64,000 nucleotides of DNA from Bradyrhizobium sp. 200 (lineage in GTDB: Bacteria; Pseudomonadota; Alphaproteobacteria; Rhizobiales; Xanthobacteraceae), in contig NZ_CP064689.1 of the NCBI RefSeq assembly GCF_023100945.1, forward strand, positions 1,904,001 to 1,968,000, written 5' to 3'. Below are positions 4,185 through 42,423 of the stretch, in pieces. Numbering within the stretch: position 1 is the stretch's first letter; every line of letters starts with the position of its first letter. The notes under the pieces are model-generated. The model did not search any database, was not told the origin of the DNA, and worked only from the letters and a program-made list of their open reading frames with translations. The position numbers and the translations under genes are program-made.

Positions 4185-5855
4185 ATGCTGGCGCGTCTGT
4201 CGATCCGTGACATCGTCCTGATCGAACGGCTCGATATCGAATTCTCCCGTGGCCTCGCGGTGCTGACCGGTGAAACCGGCGCGGGCAAATCCATCCTGCT
4301 CGATGCCTTCGCGCTGGCGCTCGGCGGCCGCGGCGATTCGGGCCTGGTTCGCCATGGCGCGGAGCAGGGCCAGGTGACGGCGACGTTCGACGTTCCCAAG
4401 GGCCATCCAGCAGCAAAGATCCTGTCCGAAAACGGCCTCGACGACACCGGTGAAATGATTCTCCGCCGCGTGCAGCTCGCCGACGGCCGCACCCGCGCCT
4501 TCGTCAACGACCAGTCGATCAGCGTGCAGACGCTGAAAGCCGTCGGCGCGGCGCTGGTCGAGATCCACGGCCAGCATGACGAGCGCGCCCTTGTCGATGC
4601 CTCGACGCACCGGCAGTTGCTCGACGCCTTTGCCGGGCTGGAGAAAGAGGTCGCCGCGCTGGAGACACTGTGGGAGGCGCGGCGTACCGCCAACACGGCG
4701 CTGGATGCGCATCGCGCCAGCATGGAGCGCGCCGCGCGCGAGGCGGATTATCTGCGCCACGCCGCCGACGAACTCAAAACGCTGAAGCCGAAGGATGGCG
4801 AGGAGACCGCGCTCGCCGAGCGCCGCACCACCATGATGCAGGGCGAGAAGATCGCAAGCGACCTGCGCGAGGCGCAGGAGGCGGTCGGCGGCCCCCATTC
4901 GCCGGTGCCGGCGCTGGCCGCCGCGGTGCGCCGCCTCGAACGTCGCGCCGCCAATTCGCCCGCGCTCGTCGAGCCGGCGGTGAAGGCGATCGATATCGCG
5001 ATCAACGCGCTGGAAGAGGCCGACCAGCATCTCAGCGCCGCCCTGGTCGCAGCCGATTTCGATCCCGCCGAGCTGGAGCGCATCGAGGAGCGGCTGTTCG
5101 CGCTGCGCGCCGCCTCGCGGAAATATTCGACGCCGGTCGATGGGCTCGCGGCGCTCGCCGCCAAATTCGTCGCCGACGTGGCGCTGATCGATGCCGGCGC
5201 CGATCAGTTGAAGAAACTGGAAGCCGCGGCCGATGAAGCCGACAAACGCTACGGCGCGGCAGCCGAGAAGCTTTCTGCGGCTCGGACCAAATCCGCCGAA
5301 AAGCTCAACAAGGCGGTGAATGCCGAACTCGCGCCGCTGAAACTCGAACGCGCAAAATTCATGACGCAGGTCGACACCGATGCGAATTCGCCGGGGCCGC
5401 AGGGCATCGACCGCGTCGAGTTCTGGGTGCAGACCAATCCGGGCACCAAGCCGGGGCCGCTGATGAAGGTTGCTTCCGGCGGCGAGCTGTCGCGCTTCCT
5501 GCTGGCGCTCAAGGTGGTGCTGTCCGACCGCGGCTCGGCGCCCACGCTGGTGTTCGACGAAATCGATACCGGCGTCGGCGGCGCGGTGGCGGACGCGATC
5601 GGCGCGCGGCTGTCGCGGCTGGCCGGCCAGGTCCAGGTGATGGCGGTGACGCACGCGCCGCAGGTCGCCGCCCGCGCCAGTACGCACCTGCTCATTTCCA
5701 AGGACGCGCTCGACAAGGGCAAGCGCGTCGCCACCCGCGTCAACGCGCTCGCCGCCGACCATCGCCGCGAGGAAATCGCCCGCATGCTGGCGGGTGCGGA
5801 GATCACCGCGGAAGCGCGCGCGGCGGCGGAGCGGCTGCTGCGCGCGGCGAGTTAG
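4185..5855 (+). CDS. recN: DNA repair protein RecN
   Basis: SMC-like ATPase acting in double-strand break repair. Its 556 residues match the family. The Walker A loop GETGAGKS is at residues 29-36. A long Ala/Glu/Arg-rich coiled-coil region fills the middle (about 160-390). The ABC signature [10 protein letters not shown] is near residue 430 and Walker [11 protein letters not shown] near 455, followed by the H-loop region VTHAPQVA. It sits 13 bases after bamD and 6 bases before ligA in what looks like one transcription unit. A 662-residue open frame on the opposite strand is a high-GC shadow. Confidence 0.97.
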
Positions 5856-34396: not shown

Positions 34397-35383
34397 TTAT
34401 GAGTGCGGCGCGGTGATCGCCTTGCGGATCGCTGCGAGCGGCGCGGTGTCGTCGAACTCAAGATCCTCGCCAACCCGCTTCAATCCGAGGTCGCGCCATA
34501 GCGCAGCGAGATCGGGGCTCACGGGCTTCGGCCCCATCTCGTTGTGGAGCCGGGTCAGCACGTCGACGCCGACGGCCTTGTCGGCGGTTGCGAGAATACG
34601 CTCGATCGACCAATCCTGCTCATGGCTGCCGCCGGCGGCGAGCACACCGCGCATCGCGTCCTGCAAGCCGCGGCGATTATTCGTCTGCTTTCGGATTTCG
34701 ATATCGGCCAACAGGCAGAACATCGCGCCGCCCCAGTATTTGCGTCCCCAGGTGGGCGTGTTGTCGAGGCCCTGATCGCCGGCCTGCGGCAAGCCTTTTG
34801 GCATGTCGCGCATCATTGCCTGCCAGATTTCCCGCGCCGTGAGGTCGCCGGCCTGCACCCGCGCGACCGGCTCGACATAGACCGCAAGCCCCTCTGACAG
34901 CCAGGCGTAGCGATCGGGCATATCGGGCAGGGCGGTATGCACCATCTCGTGCACCATCACCCAGTCGCGCCGCAAAACATCCTCGGTGGAATCGCGGCCG
35001 AGCGGAATGCGGATGGCGGCGCCGCGATAGCCCCACGTCGTGCCGCCGCGAATGCGCCCGCCGTCGACGGGCACCAGTAACAGCCGCAGCGAGGCGACGG
35101 GAAACCGCCCGTAATAGGTCGTGACGGCGCGGGCCGACATCCTGATCCAGTCGAGCAGTTTTTCCTTGGGGAGCGTGATGTCGCCCGGCGCGAACGCGAC
35201 ATGGATGGTGCCGCCGGGCACTTCGAGATCGGTTCTGGGCAGCCGGTCGAACGCATCGTAGGGCATGCGGTCGCCGCGCATATATTCCGATTGCGCATCG
35301 GCGCGGAACGACAGGGCGCTTGCCAGCATCGTGGCGAGGACGGCGCCGGCAACGGTCCAGCGAAAGGCGCCGGCGGCTTTCAT
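34397..35383 (-). CDS. Secreted zinc-metallopeptidase-like protein (HEXXH gluzincin)
   Basis: A 328-residue protein with a signal peptide (about residues 1-30, AGAVLATMLASALSFRADA). It carries the zinc motif HEMVH followed 18 residues later by the Glu of WLSEGLAVYVE, the gluzincin arrangement of peptidase-MA-like proteins. It would act in the periplasm. Its ATG overlaps the stop of the creatininase-like gene (ATGA), so it is translationally coupled to it and probably the last gene of the bufferin operon. Substrate unknown; clipping of the precursors or copper-damaged proteins is a speculative idea. Confidence 0.82.
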   Translation of the reverse strand: MKAAGAFRWTVAGAVLATMLASALSFRADAQSEYMRGDRMPYDAFDRLPRTDLEVPGGTIHVAFAPGDITLPKEKLLDWIRMSARAVTTYYGRFPVASLRLLLVPVDGGRIRGGTTWGYRGAAIRIPLGRDSTEDVLRRDWVMVHEMVHTALPDMPDRYAWLSEGLAVYVEPVARVQAGDLTAREIWQAMMRDMPKGLPQAGDQGLDNTPTWGRKYWGGAMFCLLADIEIRKQTNNRRGLQDAMRGVLAAGGSHEQDWSIERILATADKAVGVDVLTRLHNEMGPKPVSPDLAALWRDLGLKRVGEDLEFDDTAPLAAIRKAITAPHS

Positions 35384-36168
35384 CTCAGCACGCTTTGGAC
35401 CGCGGCCAATCGGTGCTCGCCGTGGCCCTGCGCGATGAACGTGGCAGCCTGTTCGTGGAGATCGTCAAGCATGGCGGCGAGCAAGGCTTCGCCCTTGGCC
35501 GATGTCGCCCGCGTCGGATCGCCATAACTGCCCGAGCGGCTGTAATTCGGCGAATTCGGATCCAACGGCGTCAATGCGCCCGGCATCGCCTGTTTCAGGT
35601 CGGGGCTGGCTTCGGCGCGCGTCATGTCGACCAGATGCGGCGCCAGCGCCAGCATCAGCGACGTCTCCAGTTCGTCGGCATGGCTGCCATGGCCCTGTTC
35701 GGACAATTGCCTGGCCACGCGGGGATAGCGCGGACCTTCGTGAATCCACAAATGCTTGACCCGGTCGCTCGCAAGGCGCGCCAGCGCGCGATCGACCGGC
35801 GCCAGCGTGCTGATCCCGGTATTGAGCACGAGCAGCTTCGAGCATCCGCTGCCGAGAATCTGCCCCGCAACCTCGCGCACGAGCGCCTCGAAGGTCGAAA
35901 TCGAAAGGCTGCTGCTGCCGGCATATTCGACAAAGGCGGGGTAATGGCCGTAGGTCAGCGTCGGCCAGATCAGCGCGCCGATTTTTCCCGCCATCTGGCC
36001 TGCGAGCCATTCGGCCTGAATACGGTCGGTATTGAGCGGAAGGTGGAAGCCGTGCTGCTTGGCCGCGGCGCCGATCGGCAATATGGCCGCCGCACCATCA
36101 CCGATGCGCCGCGCGACTTCGTCCCAATGCATGCGCTCGATGAAATGGCGATCGGTGTCTATTTCCAT
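35380..36168 (-). CDS. Creatininase-like protein lacking canonical metal ligands
   Basis: A 262-residue protein with the creatininase/amidohydrolase fold signatures LPIGAAAKQHGFHLPLNTD and HADELETSLML. Compared with creatininase (metal ligands Glu34, His36, Asp45, His120, Glu122), His39 and Asp48 are kept, but the Glu is Lys37 and the NGHYEN segment is NTGIST, so three ligands are gone. Catalysis of the usual type is unlikely. It starts 17 bases after bufC with an AGAGGGG ribosome-binding site, and it overlaps the following peptidase gene by four bases, so it belongs to the bufferin operon. Confidence 0.8.
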   Translation of the reverse strand: MEIDTDRHFIERMHWDEVARRIGDGAAAILPIGAAAKQHGFHLPLNTDRIQAEWLAGQMAGKIGALIWPTLTYGHYPAFVEYAGSSSLSISTFEALVREVAGQILGSGCSKLLVLNTGISTLAPVDRALARLASDRVKHLWIHEGPRYPRVARQLSEQGHGSHADELETSLMLALAPHLVDMTRAEASPDLKQAMPGALTPLDPNSPNYSRSGSYGDPTRATSAKGEALLAAMLDDLHEQAATFIAQGHGEHRLAAVQSVLR

Positions 36169-36185: not shown

Positions 36186-36971
36186 CTATGAGCCGACGGA
36201 AACATCCGTCAAAAGTCCTGTCGTGATCCAGCCGTGCAGATAGCCCGCGCCGCGGCTTGCCGCGCTGTCGGGGTCGTCATAGGTAGCTAACATTTCGCAG
36301 AGCACGCCGAACGGAATGCCGTTCGCGGCCTCGTCCCACATCATCGCTTCCTCCGCCGGAAGCTCGCGGAACATCGGCGTGACGTCCTGGCGCCAGATCA
36401 GGAGATGCGCAGGCTGCTCCAGTCCGGCGGCGTCCGGCGGCGCTTCGTCGTTCTTGAGCGCGAGCCAGATCGCAGCCGCGTTGGTCGAAAGCTCGAGCCT
36501 GGAGGCGCTGGGATGCGGCCTGAATCGGAGGCCCGACCATGCTTCGGGCGCAAAGCCCGCCATCTCGTTAAGCGCGACGACCTTGCCTTCCGCGGCGTCG
36601 AAGGCGTCGTTGAGCGCCTTTTCGAGTGCTGCGAGATCGGACAGCTCGGGGTGCTCGGAATAGGGTGCGGTCGATTTCAGGAATTCCGGCAGGCCTTGCG
36701 AGAACCAGCGCAGGTTCGGGTGTCCCGACGGGCGCGCCTTGACGTAAGCGTGGCCCATCTCGTCGAACATCTCGTCGCCGAGATAAAGATGCAGCAGCTC
36801 GTGGTCGTTGCGCATCGCCTCGACCAGCCGCGAACCATAGGCATAGCGATAGACGCCGAACAGCACGTCGCGCTTCTCTCGCGGGCTGTCGAGGATTTCA
36901 GCCAGCACCTTTTCGTCGCCATCGAGGATGCCGCGCTGAAAATCGGCCTGCTGTCGCGCGAAGTCGCTCAT
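36186..36971 (-). CDS. bufC: BufC-type partner protein (DUF2063/HvfC-like)
   Basis: A 261-residue protein. The N-terminal DUF2063 domain (FARQQADFQRGILDG through VYRYAYGSRLVEAMRNDHELLHLYLGDEMF) is shared by HvfC/BufC proteins. These accompany DUF692 enzymes and present the precursor peptide for modification. A second all-alpha/beta domain follows (about 130-261). Its ATG overlaps the bufB stop (ATGA), giving translational coupling and, by analogy, a BufB-BufC complex in the cytoplasm. Confidence 0.88.
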   Translation of the reverse strand: MSDFARQQADFQRGILDGDEKVLAEILDSPREKRDVLFGVYRYAYGSRLVEAMRNDHELLHLYLGDEMFDEMGHAYVKARPSGHPNLRWFSQGLPEFLKSTAPYSEHPELSDLAALEKALNDAFDAAEGKVVALNEMAGFAPEAWSGLRFRPHPSASRLELSTNAAAIWLALKNDEAPPDAAGLEQPAHLLIWRQDVTPMFRELPAEEAMMWDEAANGIPFGVLCEMLATYDDPDSAASRGAGYLHGWITTGLLTDVSVGS

Positions 36972-37873
36972 CCCGCCTGCTTGCCTACGGGGAGGATTTT
37001 CTCGGCCATCTCGCGGGTCCTAGCAACCTCGACCAGCAGTTCGTCGAGCGGCGGAATGTTGTCGTCGCGCTCGATCATGGTCGAGACCCGACCGAAGCGC
37101 TTCAACGCCGAGGCGTAGAGATCCCAGACATCCTCGCACACCGGATGGTCGTGGGTGTCGATGATATGGGTGCCCATGTGGCTGTGGCCGGCCATGTGAA
37201 ACTGCACCACGCGATCCGCCGGGATTCCATTGAGGAAGGTCAAGGGATCGTAGCCGTGGTTGAAGGCGCTGACATAGACGTTGTTGACGTCGAACAGGAG
37301 CCAGCATCCGGAGCGTCGCGACAGCTCGGACAGGAATTCCCATTCCGTCATCTCGGAATTGTTGAACTGGACATAGGTCGAGACATTCTCGAGCACGATG
37401 GCGCGGCCGAGGAAGTCCTGCACGAGCTGCACGCGGCTCACGACGTGATCGAGCGCTTCCTTCGTGTAGGGGATCGGCAGGAGATCATGCAGGTTCTTGC
37501 CGTGGACGCCGGTCCAGCACAGATGGTCCGACACCCATTTAGGCTCGACGCGCCTGGCGAGGTCCCTCAGGGCCTGCAGATATTCGAAATTCGGCGGCGC
37601 GGTAGAGGCGATCGACATCGACACGCCATGCATCACCACGGGATAGCGTTCGCAAATGCGATCGAGCGTGCGCAGCGGCTGGCCGCCGGGCAGCATGTAG
37701 TTTTCGCTGATGACCTCGAACCAGTCGATCGGCGGATTGCCGCCCAGGATTTCGTCGTAATGCTGATGGCGCAGGCCGAGACCGAAGCCGAGAAAGGCAG
37801 GCTTGGGCGATTTCGCCGGACGGTCTGCAGGCGCGGCCGCCGAGGTTTTTGGCAATCTGCTCGCGACGTTCAT
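36968..37873 (-). CDS. bufB: MNIO (DUF692) bufferin maturase BufB
   Basis: A 301-residue TIM-barrel multinuclear iron enzyme. In characterised bufferin systems this family converts precursor Cys to thiooxazole-type heterocycles that bind copper. Family motifs: GFGLGLRHQHYDEIL, DWFEVISENYM, VMHGVSMSI, WVSDHLCWTG, IVLENVSTYVQF, LLFDVNNVYVSAFNHG, VVQFHMAGHS and IERDDNIPPLDEL; these contain the iron-binding His, Glu and Asp residues. The ATG at 37873 follows GGAGACGAG. It lies 111 bases after the second precursor gene, beyond a hairpin, and overlaps bufC. Confidence 0.93.
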   Translation of the reverse strand: MNVASRLPKTSAAAPADRPAKSPKPAFLGFGLGLRHQHYDEILGGNPPIDWFEVISENYMLPGGQPLRTLDRICERYPVVMHGVSMSIASTAPPNFEYLQALRDLARRVEPKWVSDHLCWTGVHGKNLHDLLPIPYTKEALDHVVSRVQLVQDFLGRAIVLENVSTYVQFNNSEMTEWEFLSELSRRSGCWLLFDVNNVYVSAFNHGYDPLTFLNGIPADRVVQFHMAGHSHMGTHIIDTHDHPVCEDVWDLYASALKRFGRVSTMIERDDNIPPLDELLVEVARTREMAEKILPVGKQAG

Positions 37874-37946: not shown

Positions 37947-37972
37947 CGAGGCCCGGCCTATACCGGGCCTCG
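37947..37972 (-). terminator. Hairpin between the second bufferin precursor and bufB
   Basis: A perfect 10-bp stem (CGAGGCCCGG with CCGGGCCTCG) around a 6-base loop lies 13-38 bases after the precursor stop. No U-run follows, so it probably acts as a partial terminator or an RNA-stabilising end. That would allow more precursor transcript than maturase transcript. Confidence 0.65.
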
Positions 37973-37984
37973 ATCGGGCCATCG

Positions 37985-38242
37985 CTAGGACGGCATATAC
38001 TTACCCTTGGCGGCGTCGCACTTCTCCTTGGTCATGGCCGAGAAGCCCTGACCCTTGCAGGCGTTCTGGCCCTTGCAGGCATTCGCCCCGCCCTTGCATG
38101 CGCTCTGACCCTTGCAGGCATTGGCGCCGACGCACTTACCCTCGCCGGCGGCGTAGGTCACGGTCGACACGGTGGCGCCGGCCAGGAACAGAGTGGCAGC
38201 GGCGGCGGCCAGCGCAGCGCCGGACTTGGATGTCATCTTCAT
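37985..38242 (-). CDS. bufA2: Bufferin precursor peptide, BufA2 type (copy 2)
   Basis: An 85-residue secreted precursor. A signal peptide (MKMTSKSGAALAAAAATLFL... ending near Ala31-Ala32) precedes a Cys-rich core with Cys at 37, 43, 49, 56, 62 and 75. The core repeats the unit ACKGQ/ACKGG four times (ANACKGQSACKGG then ANACKGQNACKGQ). In bufferins such Cys are modified by BufB and the exported product sequesters copper in the periplasm. A strong GGAGG ribosome-binding site precedes the ATG, and the gene has its own ECF-like promoter about 80 bases upstream. Confidence 0.88.
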   Translation of the reverse strand: MKMTSKSGAALAAAAATLFLAGATVSTVTYAAGEGKCVGANACKGQSACKGGANACKGQNACKGQGFSAMTKEKCDAAKGKYMPS

Positions 38243-38322
38243 GGTTATCCTCCAAAAGAAGTGTGAGGGTGCATCGCCCGCAAGCAGCGACAGTTCCAGC
38301 CGACAAACGGCACCCGGAGATA

Positions 38323-38350
38323 GCTACGCAGCGGGTCTGGCTTTGGTTAC
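38323..38350 (-). promoter_or_regulatory. ECF-type promoter of the second bufferin precursor
   Basis: On the minus strand GTAACC (38350-38345) is followed after exactly 16 bases by CGTAGC (38328-38323). The element ends 80 bases before the bufA2 copy 2 start. It matches the twin element upstream of copy 1 and resembles the GTAACC-N16-CGAA sites reported for Caulobacter SigF, whose regulon includes bufferin genes. No sigma factor gene is in the window. Confidence 0.7.
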
Positions 38351-38392
38351 GTGCCGGCCGAATTTATTTCAGCCACCGGACCGAAACAACGA

Positions 38393-38413
38393 GGGCCCGG
38401 CAGCGCCGGGCCC
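38393..38413 (-). terminator. Hairpin after the first bufferin precursor
   Basis: A perfect 9-bp stem GGGCCCGGC/GCCGGGCCC with a 3-base loop lies about 24 bases after the copy 1 stop. On the minus strand it is followed by TCGTTGTTT, a weak T-rich tail. It sits between copy 1 and the separate promoter of copy 2, so copy 1 is likely its own transcript. Confidence 0.7.
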
Positions 38414-38436
38414 CCTCTGCGCACCTGATCCGCCGA

Positions 38437-38700
38437 TCAACCCTTGACGAACTTGGCGCCCATGGCGGCGCACTGCTTTTCCGAGGTCGTCGAGAAGCCG
38501 GTGCCCTTGCAGGCGTTCTGGCCCTTGCAGGCATTGGCGGCGCCCTTGCAGGCGCTCTGGCCCTTGCAGGCGTTGCCGGCCATGCACTTGCCCGCGGCGG
38601 CGTTCGCTGATGTCGACACTGTCGACACCACCGAGCCGGCGAGGAACAGGGTGGCTGCGGCAGCGGCGAGCGTCGCGCCGGACTTGGAATTCAACTTCAT
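38437..38700 (-). CDS. bufA2: Bufferin precursor peptide, BufA2 type (copy 1)
   Basis: An 87-residue paralogue of the next gene. The signal peptide (to about Ala34, STSANA) precedes Cys at 39, 45, 51, 58, 64 and 77, with exactly the same Cys spacing as copy 2 (5, 5, 6, 5, 12 residues between). The core again repeats ACKGQ/ACKGA units. The main differences lie in the last 20 residues and the signal cleavage region. A GAGGAG ribosome-binding site precedes the ATG at 38700; the codons upstream to 38745 are not signal-like. Its ECF-like promoter is about 160 bases upstream. Confidence 0.88.
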   Translation of the reverse strand: MKLNSKSGATLAAAAATLFLAGSVVSTVSTSANAAAGKCMAGNACKGQSACKGAANACKGQNACKGTGFSTTSEKQCAAMGAKFVKG

Positions 38701-38862: not shown

Positions 38863-38890
38863 GCTACGGGGCATCGGGCGATTTGGTTAC
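38863..38890 (-). promoter_or_regulatory. ECF-type promoter of the first bufferin precursor
   Basis: On the minus strand GTAACC (38890-38885) is followed after exactly 16 bases by CGTAGC (38868-38863), identical in both boxes and spacing to the element before copy 2; AAA follows GTAACC in both. The spacer sequences otherwise differ, which argues for selection on the boxes. Binding by a SigF-like ECF factor is inferred from the published Caulobacter consensus. Confidence 0.72.
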
Positions 38891-39081: not shown

Positions 39082-40869
39082 CTATCCGCGCGCCGGTTTC
39101 TTCAGCCTGGCCATCTGCGCAACCGTTGCCCGCAGCTCGTCGGCATTGAAGGATGGAAACGAGCAGATGCGGTTGCTGCAAGCGAATGCCGCAGGTTCGC
39201 CAAGATCGGGATATTCGACATCGGGGTTGGGCAGCTTTCCCTCGCGCAGATCCAGCCATTCCAGGCGCTTGTAGCGGGCCGGCAGTGCACGGGCCAGGGC
39301 ATGCAGGTCTTTCGCGCGGGCGTCGTCCTTGTGTCCGACGATGGTCATGTGGGTGGGCTCGACCGCGAGTTCCTCGTCAGCGAGCAGGACGCCGGGCAGC
39401 GGGCGCATCATCCCGGTTGACGCGCTGGCGAGATAGCGCATCGCATGCGCGGCCTGCTCGCGATAGTTCTCGTTGCCGAAGTAGCGGTTGAGCAGGTTCA
39501 TGAACCTTGCGATCTGCACCTGGTCGTCAATCAGCTTGGCGGGTTTTGCGAGTACGCCGGTCTTGCCTTCGGCGGTCTTCGAGGTCACGAAGCCGCCGGC
39601 TTCATCGCGGAAGGTTGCGACGAAATCGCCGGCTTTGGCGGCCGACGTGAGCCAGTCGCGATTTCCGGTGGCGGCATAGAGATCGAGGAAGGCCTGGCCC
39701 ATCGCGAGCGTATCGCCGAGAAATGGCCCGCCGCGATCCTTTTCGCCGTGACGGAAACCGCCATCCGGCAGCGCGCGGTTGTCGATCACCCATTTCGCCG
39801 CGCGTTCCGCGATCGCCAGCACCTTGGGATCGTTGGTAACGTTGTAGTACGCGGCAAGTCCTGAAATGGCCCAGCCATTTTCGCGCGCGTATAAATTCTT
39901 GTCGATGCGCGGCATGCCCAGTTTGCGGCGCTCGCCGTCCGATAGCGCGTAGTATTTGTGCCCGTCGATGTCGTGGTCGAGATCGGCGTCCTGGCTGACA
40001 TAGAACGCGCCGTCAGGGCTCGTCAGAAATTCCGCGAGATAGCGTTCGATGTTGCGGGCGGCGGCAAGATGTTTCGGATCCTTCCACAGCGCATAGGCCT
40101 GGCTGTATTGCCGGAGATATTGCGCCTGGAACGACATGATCTTTTCGAAATGCGCGCGGGTCCAGGAGCCCGCTTCGGAATATTGGTAGACGCCGCCCCA
40201 GACCGGATCGATCAGCGCGATGGCGGCATCCAGCGTCTGCCGGGCGCGCCGGGTCGCCGTGGCGTCGCCGGCCTCGGCGCGGGTGATCGCCAGATCCATG
40301 CTGTCGGCATCGATGTATTTCTGGTTCTCGCCCCAGCCGCCGAGTTTTTCCTCGTAGGATTCGTCGAAATTCTTCGTGAGTGCCGCGCGCTGTTCCTTGT
40401 CGAGGAAGGCGGAGGCCGACGGCTTCACCTCAAAGGCTTCGCCGACCGACGGTCCGGGTGACGGATCGTCGATGATCGCCTTGAGTAGCGCCTGCATCCG
40501 TTCCGGCTCGATATATCCCCTGATCTTAGCGATCTCGGTGCCGTCGGGGCCGAACACGATGGTCGCCGGCCAGCCCCAGTCGCCATAGCGGCTCGACAGA
40601 TCGGGGTTGGCGTCCTGGTCGACCCGCACCGGCAGATATTTCGCCGCCAGCAATTCCCTGACCTCGGGATTGGCATAGGTCGTCTTCTCCATGACGTGGC
40701 ACCAGTGGCACCAGACCGCCTCGAGATCGAGAATGACGAAGCGCTGCTCGGCCTGCGCGCGGGTGAACAGATCGTCGCTCCATTCACTCCATTTTGGTCC
40801 GTCCGACGCAAGCGACGGAGATGCAACGAATGCGGCGAGGGCGAAGGCGGCGATGCGGACGAGTTTCAT
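39082..40869 (-). CDS. Secreted thioredoxin-fold DUF255 protein (YyaL/SPATA20-related)
   Basis: A 595-residue protein with a signal peptide (MKLVRIAAFALAAFVASPSLA). The N-terminal thioredoxin-like domain has the motif VWCHWCHVMEKTTYANPEV with Cys54 and Cys57 and the cis-Pro loop WGWPATIVF. The remaining ~430 residues form the alpha/alpha toroid of DUF255 proteins (GWGENQKYIDADSMDL, YVSQDADLDHDIDGHKYY, RENGWAISGLAAYYN). Most relatives are cytosolic; export here places the CXXC pair in the periplasm. It sits between DoxX and the bufferin genes on the same strand, 87 bases after DoxX. Confidence 0.87.
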   Translation of the reverse strand: MKLVRIAAFALAAFVASPSLASDGPKWSEWSDDLFTRAQAEQRFVILDLEAVWCHWCHVMEKTTYANPEVRELLAAKYLPVRVDQDANPDLSSRYGDWGWPATIVFGPDGTEIAKIRGYIEPERMQALLKAIIDDPSPGPSVGEAFEVKPSASAFLDKEQRAALTKNFDESYEEKLGGWGENQKYIDADSMDLAITRAEAGDATATRRARQTLDAAIALIDPVWGGVYQYSEAGSWTRAHFEKIMSFQAQYLRQYSQAYALWKDPKHLAAARNIERYLAEFLTSPDGAFYVSQDADLDHDIDGHKYYALSDGERRKLGMPRIDKNLYARENGWAISGLAAYYNVTNDPKVLAIAERAAKWVIDNRALPDGGFRHGEKDRGGPFLGDTLAMGQAFLDLYAATGNRDWLTSAAKAGDFVATFRDEAGGFVTSKTAEGKTGVLAKPAKLIDDQVQIARFMNLLNRYFGNENYREQAAHAMRYLASASTGMMRPLPGVLLADEELAVEPTHMTIVGHKDDARAKDLHALARALPARYKRLEWLDLREGKLPNPDVEYPDLGEPAAFACSNRICSFPSFNADELRATVAQMARLKKPARG

Positions 40870-40956: not shown

Positions 40957-41421
40957 TCAGGTCGATTTCTCGCTGTGGCCGGCCGCATTCACCAGCAGCC
41001 GGTCCAGCGACGCAGCGCCGGGGCCTGCGATGGCGAGCCACATGAAGCCGGCGAAGTAGGCCGCTTCCTCGAAGCCGAGCAGCGTCTCCAGCGAATCGAC
41101 GTCGCCCCATTTCGCCGACTTGATGGCGACGACCATGACCACCGCCAGCATCGCCGCCGGGATTCGCGTGAACAGGCCGAGGATCAGCATCGCACCGCCG
41201 AAAAATTCGACGCCGGACACGAAGGGGGTGAGGATTTTTGGGAACGGGATGCCCCAGCCGACAAAGTTCTCCGTCACCTGCTCAAGATGGGTCAGCTTGC
41301 CCCAGCCGGCCAGCATGAAGGTGTAACCGACAACGAGCCGCATGATCAGGGGACCGGCCCAGGAAAAATGCGATGCGATTTGCGCGGGCAGCAGGATGAG
41401 AAGATGGACGATGAAATTCAT
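40957..41421 (-). CDS. DoxX family membrane protein
   Basis: A 154-residue four-helix membrane protein. The family core is LVVGYTFMLAGWGKLTHL and the FVSGVEFFGGAMLILGLFTRIPAAMLAVVMVVAI segment. DoxX-like proteins act with thiol/thiosulfate or quinone redox and often accompany bufferin and MNIO operons. It lies between ccdA (146 bases upstream) and the DUF255 gene on the same strand. The C-terminal NAAGHSEKST is cytosolic or periplasmic and polar. Confidence 0.88.
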   Translation of the reverse strand: MNFIVHLLILLPAQIASHFSWAGPLIMRLVVGYTFMLAGWGKLTHLEQVTENFVGWGIPFPKILTPFVSGVEFFGGAMLILGLFTRIPAAMLAVVMVVAIKSAKWGDVDSLETLLGFEEAAYFAGFMWLAIAGPGAASLDRLLVNAAGHSEKST

Positions 41422-41566
41422 GCGAACCCCCCTTTAAGTATTTGTCGTGACGAGGCCGCAACCTGCGGCTTCTTCAATCCAGTGCGCGCAAAAAAGCCGC
41501 GGCCGCGATTGCCGCAATCTGGTCCTGACAGGAATTTCGCAATGGCCGGCCCGCTTGTTACGGGAC

Positions 41567-42298
41567 CTAACCGAAATTTTGCAGTGCGGGGAAGGTCTCC
41601 AGCAGCCAGATGCTCATGCTGGTCACGGAGCCAGTCAGGAAGCCGATGCCGGTGATCACCATTAGGATGCCCATGGCATGCTCGACCTTGCCGAGGTGCC
41701 GCTTCATCCGCGCAAACAGCGAGGAGAACTGCTCGATCATGAAGGCCGCCAGCAGGAACGGGATTCCGAGCCCGGCGGAATAGACCGCGAGCAGGCCCGC
41801 GCCCTTGGCAACGGTGGCCTCGGCCGCTGCGATCGACAGGATCGCCGCCAGAATGGGGCCGATGCAGGGGGTCCAGCCGAACGCAAAGGCGAGCCCCATG
41901 GCATAGGCGCCCCACAACCCGACCGGCTTCGGCATCTGCATGCGGCCCTCGCGCATCAACAGCCCGATCCGGGTCAGGCCGAGGAAATGCAGGCCCATGA
42001 TGATGATCACGATGCCGGCCAGGATCGAGAGCTCTGCGGACCAGGCGCGGATCAGGCCGCCGATCAGGGAAGCGCTGGCGCCGAGCGCCACGAAGACGGT
42101 GGAAAAGCCGAGCACGAACATCAGCGCCGAAGCCATCACCGCGCGCTTGGAGGCCTGCGTCGGTCCGTCATTGGCGACATGCTCGATGGTCGCGCCGGTG
42201 AGATAGATCAGATAGGGCGGCACCAGCGGCAGCACGCAGGGCGACAGGAAGCTGACGAGACCGGCAATCAGGGCCGCCGGTATAGAAACATCGTGCAT
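41567..42298 (-). CDS. ccdA: CcdA/DsbD-type thiol-disulfide electron carrier
   Basis: A 243-residue six-helix membrane protein that carries electrons from cytoplasmic thioredoxin to periplasmic thiols. The two transmembrane redox Cys are Cys21 in FLSPCVLPLVPPYL and Cys145 in FGWTPCIGPIL. The ATG at 42298 gives the family-typical start; an extra 8 codons upstream look unneeded. It leads a minus-strand series (ccdA, DoxX, DUF255, bufferins), consistent with keeping periplasmic Cys residues reduced. It is divergent from the cyclase gene at 42424. Confidence 0.92.
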   Translation of the reverse strand: MHDVSIPAALIAGLVSFLSPCVLPLVPPYLIYLTGATIEHVANDGPTQASKRAVMASALMFVLGFSTVFVALGASASLIGGLIRAWSAELSILAGIVIIIMGLHFLGLTRIGLLMREGRMQMPKPVGLWGAYAMGLAFAFGWTPCIGPILAAILSIAAAEATVAKGAGLLAVYSAGLGIPFLLAAFMIEQFSSLFARMKRHLGKVEHAMGILMVITGIGFLTGSVTSMSIWLLETFPALQNFG

Positions 42299-42423
42299 TG
42301 CATGACCTTCGAGAATTGCCACAAGGCATAGCGCCGTCCTGGCTTATACGGAACAGACAATCGATAAGTTTCGTCGCCATTGCCGCTCAAGTTCGGTCAC
42401 AGAGCCGTGTCCGGGGCGCCGAA

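Follow-up and report, generated by a model that had tools for sequence, protein, structure and literature searches.

Two lineages of BufA2-type bufferin precursors with separate ECF16-type promoters beside a single maturase gene in Bradyrhizobium sp. 200

Why a bacterium should retain two bufferin precursors beside a single maturase is the question raised by a locus of Bradyrhizobium sp. 200 (GCF_023100945.1), in which two adjacent genes, here termed bufAup and bufAdn, are followed by bufB, encoding an MNIO maturase, and bufC, encoding its DUF2063 partner. The window analyzed is the whole stretch of 64,000 nt at positions 1,904,001 to 1,968,000 of contig NZ_CP064689.1, and all coordinates are relative to it. 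Tandem precursors beside one maturase have been published previously, as have genomes that combine several precursors with a single MNIO/partner pair; whether all such precursors are modified, and why they are kept, was posed as a question in the same work (PMC12452194). It is proposed here, with a probability of roughly 0.7 for the model as a whole, that the locus specifies two periplasmic BufA2 bufferins which would be controlled in trans by an ECF16-type extracytoplasmic function (ECF) sigma factor, would carry four modified Cys-Lys sites each, would bind copper, and would have become specialized.

Precursor genes and Cys pattern

The genes and cores that form the basis of this proposal are as follows.

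38437 to 38700, minus strand: bufAup, upstream BufA2-type bufferin precursor, 87 amino acids, six Cys (NF050166, 74.4 bits, cut-off 60)
37985 to 38242, minus strand: bufAdn, downstream BufA2-type bufferin precursor, 85 amino acids, six Cys (NF050166, 82.2 bits, cut-off 60)
36968 to 37873, minus strand: bufB, MNIO bufferin maturase, 301 amino acids (NF050167, 386 bits, cut-off 310; PF05114)
36186 to 36971, minus strand: bufC, DUF2063 partner protein (PME type 1), 261 amino acids (PF09836, 61 bits, cut-off 27.2)
38470 to 38586, minus strand: six-Cys core of bufAup, C39 to C77, with Lys after each of C45, C51, C58, and C64 (from sequence)
38018 to 38134, minus strand: six-Cys core of bufAdn, C37 to C75, with Lys after each of C43, C49, C56, and C62 (from sequence)

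The original prediction, made from the DNA sequence without database searches, had described the two adjacent reading frames as BufA2-type precursors next to bufB and bufC. Both frames are real, the BufA2-type naming is right in that each peptide exceeds the curated cut-off, and the two enzyme genes adjoin them, the order of precursor, MNIO, and DUF2063 partner being that of BufA2-type clusters. The N terminus of either peptide, inspected by eye, has a lysine start, a hydrophobic Ala-rich stretch, and an AxA-like site. Neither peptide matches the DUF2282 precursor family (PF10048, BufA1 type), nor was such a precursor found in the whole genome, a single 9.49-Mb contig with two BufA2 genes and one MNIO. 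No NCBIfam model matched BufC at 1e-3, and no solved structure matched its sequence at that threshold, while a comparison of precursor sequence with solved structures returned a single match at E 0.54. The closest named relatives by BufB belong to Bradyrhizobium, with identity up to 96%.

The six Cys of each peptide are separated by gaps of 5, 5, 6, 5, and 12, as had been claimed, and four of them lie in ACKG units, although the ACKGG form occurs only in bufAdn, the bufAup units being ACKGQ, ACKGA, ACKGQ, and ACKGT. EGKCG repeats (Lys-Cys, oxazolin type) are absent from both sequences, in which the repeats are of the Cys-Lys ACKG type. The common spacing had also been read as the mark of a twin pair; it proved instead to be a family-wide signature and says nothing special about the pair, since none of the six Cys varies among the 27 family members aligned, and a spacing peculiar to these two peptides is thus ruled out. 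Across 80 named loci (17 Bradyrhizobium-like and 63 others), a spacing of 5, 5, 6, and 5 with a final gap of 12 or 13 held for 31 of the 33 precursor genes from Bradyrhizobium-like loci and for 67 of 69 elsewhere, and published BufA2 members have six conserved Cys in 90% of cases and 12 in the remainder (PMC12452194).

Natural variants of the pattern were also encountered. BufA2-like peptides with as many as 10 Cys, at gaps of 5, 5, 6, 5, 6, 5, 6, 5, and 12, are encoded at two gammaproteobacterial loci (L203, precursor near 5557; L205, precursor near 5582), so that the ACKG-type unit can expand within one peptide. One ACKG unit is deleted at L131 (precursor at 5155), and one Cys is replaced by Ala at L139 (precursor at 5378) and in G101; the variants with five core Cys at L131, L139, and L062 have either lost an ACKG unit or have Ala in place of the fourth Cys. 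In a Bradyrhizobium genome lacking BufA2, the below-cut-off match to the BufA2 model (L056, 1381 to 1761) is a DUF2282 (BufA1-type) precursor with 78.7 bits, and three further weak matches to the model resemble it by eye.

Spread and history of the two precursor lineages

A BufA2 gene above the cut-off was present in 44 of 146 genomes sampled from the genus (that of strain 200 included), 40 of which carry at least two copies. In a sample of the family, 11 of 248 genomes were positive, four of these lying outside the genus. Among the named loci, two copies were found at 14 and three at one of the 17 Bradyrhizobium-like loci, whereas the 63 others harbored one copy in 55 cases, two in seven, and none that was found in one.

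A precursor tree was built from 96 of the 98 bufA genes of 50 loci together with ten outgroups, one gene that was partly unreadable and one cut at a contig end having been left out. Genes were labeled upstream or downstream type according to their best match to the two copies of the window, a label that agrees with gene position in all but four genomes: G101 and G365 have two downstream-type copies, G161 has one extra downstream-type copy, and G203 has the downstream type only. The 42 upstream-type copies all group in one clade (support 0.979), and the 54 downstream-type copies all group in a second (0.812); the upstream type also occurs in three of the four other genera that have the cluster. 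A recent tandem duplication is ruled out by this split of the copies into two clades across species; as judged from the tree, in which the joining node is weak, the pair is probably the product of one old duplication into upstream and downstream paralogues.

Thirteen alignment columns set the two types nearly fully apart (overlap of 0.10 or less). Within the C1-to-C5 core, only the two residues after C1-x separate them, and the bufAup copy looks derived because the downstream type agrees with the outgroups at these residues. Both lineages are under purifying selection, the mean dN/mean dS (nonsynonymous to synonymous divergence) being 0.222 in upstream-type and 0.168 in downstream-type copies (40 genes and 780 pairs each), the bufAup tail being the least constrained part at 0.513.

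The original prediction had left the choice between dosage and functional specialization open. If the two bufferins were interchangeable, the second copy would merely raise the amount of metal-binding peptide. This explanation draws on an identical Cys pattern, a nearly identical core, a single maturase pair serving both precursors, promoters of the same class, and the sufficiency of one copy at most of the distant loci. Pure dosage does not, however, predict that the copies should remain in two clades without sign of homogenization, nor that thirteen columns should separate them almost fully. Because the two clades have been kept separately, we regard simple dosage as rather unlikely, and the separate clades, the lineage-fixed residues, and the separate promoters described below favor specialization. 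The precursors, kept apart by selection, therefore probably have distinct metal loads, metal states, partners, or timing.

ECF16-type promoter elements

Three elements resembling ECF16 promoters were identified by motif match within the cluster, one before each precursor gene and one before doxX and duf255, which lie upstream of bufAup.

38865 to 38890, minus strand: ECF16-type promoter of bufAup, GTAACC-N16-CGTA
38325 to 38350, minus strand: ECF16-type promoter of bufAdn, GTAACC-N16-CGTA
41536 to 41561, minus strand: ECF16-type promoter of doxX-duf255, GTAACA-N16-CGAA

In relatives, the pattern GTAACN-N15-17-CG(A/T)N precedes 41 of 43 bufAup genes and 51 of 55 bufAdn genes, and an ECF16-type element is located 5' of doxX in 44 of 45 cases. 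Taken over 97 of the 98 bufA upstream regions (one short stretch was left out), the element was present in 92, compared with a mean of 3.0 in mononucleotide shuffles, 15 in reversed, and 1 in reverse-complemented sequences; when CGTA was required, 89 regions retained it, against 0.23, 0, and 0 in the respective controls. At bufAdn the two halves of the element are conserved while the spacer is widely variable.

The -35 half and the spacing match the ECF16 consensus, GTAACC-N16-CGAA, which is also the form given for Caulobacter sigma-F sites (PMC3511200). The -10 box differs by gene, being CGTA in 41 of 41 bufAup and 48 of 51 bufAdn elements and CGAA in 41 of 44 doxX elements. This gene-specific box is conserved, with CGAA also found at the two sigma operons described below, and the difference might reflect two sigma factors with different preferences.

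The motif was virtually absent upstream of duf255 (0 of 37), bufB (2 of 50), and bufC (0 of 48), and absent upstream of the creatininase gene located 3' of bufC (0 of 38) and of the gene after it (0 of 37), so that ECF16 control from a promoter of their own was rejected for these genes. The same applies to ccdA, where the one match among 43 was an artefact, the slice in question lying at the edge of a contig.

Proposed control by sigma factors in trans

Sigma genes are present in Buf1 clusters and absent from Buf2 clusters according to a previous survey (PMC12452194); the cluster of strain 200 likewise has none, yet it carries ECF16-type promoters. Four NrsF-type anti-sigma genes are encoded in the genome, none of them within the window. 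The tight pattern GTAACCAA-N13/14-CG(A/T)A has four matches in the genome (the reversed pattern has one), which are situated 5' of bufAup, bufAdn, and two ECF-sigma genes that are each followed by an NrsF gene; Pfam support was obtained for one sigma and one NrsF of these operons. Separately, two NrsF-type anti-sigma genes of this genome lie less than 3 kb apart (L110 and L113, approximately 733,000 to 737,000).

In 14 BufA2-positive relatives, the 38 tight matches comprise 20 at buf loci, five before a homologous sigma gene, seven elsewhere, and six that were not fetched, while six BufA2-negative genomes together yielded one tight match (control, 7), which precedes a sigma gene. As counts are near or below those of the controls, the proposed sigma control rests on the placement of the motif rather than on its number.

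Several points weigh against the proposed model. The bufA -10 box is CGTA, whereas that of the published ECF16 sites and of the two sigma operons of this genome is CGAA; no genome-wide enrichment of the looser motif was seen (13 matches compared with 43 in the reversed control); and outside Bradyrhizobium-like loci the element is rare, preceding 4 of 67 genes as opposed to 29 of 31 within, so that the promoter is to be regarded as a lineage trait. No sigma gene was found in the buf cluster, and the tight-pattern total in the BufA2-positive relatives barely differs from that of the reversed control (32). Target fusions of Sinorhizobium meliloti RpoE7 were reported to be unresponsive to H2O2, Cd, and chromate (PMC6180224), and no expression of a related precursor was seen under copper (PMC12538549). 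Finally, the node joining both Bradyrhizobium-like clades against the outgroups has a support of 0.259, and one lineage may therefore have arrived by transfer.

The first three of these points would also suit a reading in which GTAAC-N15/16-CGTA is bound by another regulator or remains from the duplication. We consider this distinctly doubtful, given that the halves are kept although the downstream spacer varies widely, that the spacing agrees with published ECF16 sites, that the same -35 extension, GTAACCAA, is located 5' of two sigma/NrsF operons, and that the sites of Bradyrhizobium japonicum EcfF, which take the form GTAAC(g,a)-N14-15-(c,t)CG(t,a), may have either T or A in the -10 box (PMC3420878).

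Predicted modification sites and BufB specificity

In each peptide, Lys follows four of the Cys (C2 to C5) but not C1 or C6, and the suggestion that the repeated unit provides several modification sites is thus plausible, with four Cys-Lys dyads per peptide. A Cys-Lys precursor group whose motifs include NACKG has been described, the MNIOs of which have Asp in place of Phe beside the catalytic Asp (PMC13097082). Alignment to the structure 3bww places an ERDD motif (E268 to D271) in BufB, with D271 at the Cys-Lys selectivity position where 3bww has ERDF, as expected for this group because its MNIOs carry that Asp. The locus thereby resembles the captophorins of the Cys-Lys group, both in its motifs and in the replaced Phe; in that study, however, thiooxazoles were shown on Lys-Cys peptides and a FonBC enzyme did not process NACKG (PMC13097082). 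By analogy with Buf1, C2 to C5 would be modified and C1 and C6 would be paired in a disulphide. The start of the signal peptide has been suggested to form part of maturase recognition (PMC12452194).

Redox neighbors and transcript shape

Upstream of the precursor genes, three further genes of the same strand were assigned to families.

39082 to 40869, minus strand: duf255, thioredoxin-like DUF255 protein (PF03190, 77.8 bits, cut-off 27; apparent signal peptide by eye)
40957 to 41421, minus strand: doxX, DoxX membrane protein (PF07681, 75.8 bits)
41567 to 42304, minus strand: ccdA-like gene, DsbD transmembrane protein (PF02683, 53.4 bits, cut-off 27.1), a syntenic neighbor without promoter motif

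The gene order, 5' to 3' on the minus strand, is ccdA-like, doxX, duf255, bufAup, bufAdn, bufB, bufC. Against the HvfX model, doxX scored 64.8 bits, under the cut-off of 80. Creatininase-like and secreted peptidase-like genes follow 3' of bufC (34397 to 36168), as they do in many relatives. CcdA together with a periplasmic thioredoxin presumably resembles a split DsbD; no paper joining DUF255 with CcdA was found in the open-access literature searched.

Forty-six loci could be scored for co-occurrence, four of the 50 having been excluded because doxX was not on the stretch. Both bufAup and duf255 were present in 38, neither in six, and bufAup alone in one (G006); in the remaining one (G203), duf255 is in pieces and bufAup is absent. 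The absence of duf255 in six of seven loci without bufAup, compared with one of 39 with it, gives a Fisher p of 5e-6 when kinship is ignored, and loci with neither gene occupy at least four places in a tree of bufB and bufC, for which node support was not printed. Because the two genes are neighbors, joint deletion suffices to explain this pattern and no functional tie is needed. That only one precursor is modified, the other being an unmodified thiol peptide that serves as a scaffold or redox sink and is perhaps reduced by CcdA/DUF255, has been raised where a genome combines several precursors with a single MNIO (PMC12452194) and would fit this co-absence, but is very unlikely, since both peptides retain all four Cys-Lys dyads and begin their signal peptides alike, the co-absence being equally explained by the loss of two adjacent genes.

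A more specific division of labor can be envisaged within the preferred model, in which both precursors are modified. The ancestral-like bufAdn, co-transcribed with the maturase, would be complemented by the derived bufAup, which has its own ECF16-type promoter and would be linked in function to the periplasmic DUF255 thioredoxin, by which it would be kept reduced or be reloaded, such that the two metallophores made by one maturase would differ in their redox or metal duties. We offer this as a tentative and, on balance, unlikely refinement.

Two GC-rich hairpins flank bufAdn.

38391 to 38415, minus strand: terminator-like hairpin after bufAup (fold z -3.06, 0 of 200 shuffles as good)
37947 to 37972, minus strand: hairpin after bufAdn, without a T run (fold z -2.12, 7 of 200 shuffles as good)

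Two terminator-like sites were found in the region against 1.4 expected, a number near chance, and only the bufAup hairpin resembles a terminator; similar hairpins occur in many relatives by single-sequence folding. The bufAup gene would thus mostly form its own transcript, and the second hairpin may favor production of precursor over enzyme.

Proposed model and relation to known systems

In the proposed course of events, transcription would be started under stress from three promoters, namely, those of doxX-duf255, bufAup, and bufAdn-bufB-bufC, by an ECF16-type sigma factor whose gene lies at another genomic site and which is restrained by an NrsF-type anti-sigma factor. BufB and BufC would then oxidize the four Lys-preceding Cys (C2 to C5) of each precursor, probably to thiooxazoles, after which the peptides would be exported by the Sec pathway and the outer Cys, C1 and C6, may pair. 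Both peptides are predicted to bind excess copper in the periplasm.

The locus is closest to BufA2 systems (Buf2, Buf_6/12Cys) with BufB and BufC, sharing with them six Cys, an apparently Sec-type N terminus, the order of precursor, MNIO, and DUF2063 protein, and a nearby doxX; it differs in having two paralogous precursors with a promoter each and in the position of doxX, which lies upstream with the DUF255 thioredoxin rather than after bufC. The sigma-F/NrsF regulon of Caulobacter (PMC3511200) similarly places ECF16-type GTAACC-N16 elements before bufferin-type genes and doxX, but involves DUF2282 (BufA1) precursors, with one operon beside the sigma gene, whereas here no DUF2282 precursor is present, the sigma genes are far off, and the precursor -10 box is CGTA. 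The EcfF/OsrA peroxide regulon of B. japonicum shares an ECF16 sigma with an NrsF-type anti-sigma, the CG(t/a) -10 box, and, among its targets, a periplasmic thioredoxin together with a protein of the cytochrome-c-biogenesis type; its elements have GTAAC(g,a) and a shorter spacer, and the targets in Table 3 of that report name no MNIO or bufferin gene (PMC3420878).

BufA2 naming, the family Cys pattern, and tandem precursors are already-known parts of this picture. What appears to be new for a Buf2 cluster, within the open-access literature searched, is the history of two lineages together with the presence of three ECF16-type promoters; in that literature, bufferin and Bradyrhizobium together returned only papers that were, by title and abstract, on other subjects.

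Nearly all sampled relatives that carry BufA2 have kept the two precursors apart, and the genome of strain 200 encodes a single MNIO; the locus therefore provides a clean natural pair with which to address whether every precursor next to a shared MNIO undergoes modification and for what reason several are retained. The conserved ECF16-type promoters suggest that a Buf2 cluster devoid of its own sigma gene can join a sigma-F-type stress regulon in trans, which would connect bufferins with a sensing system on which work in Caulobacter and Bradyrhizobium already exists.
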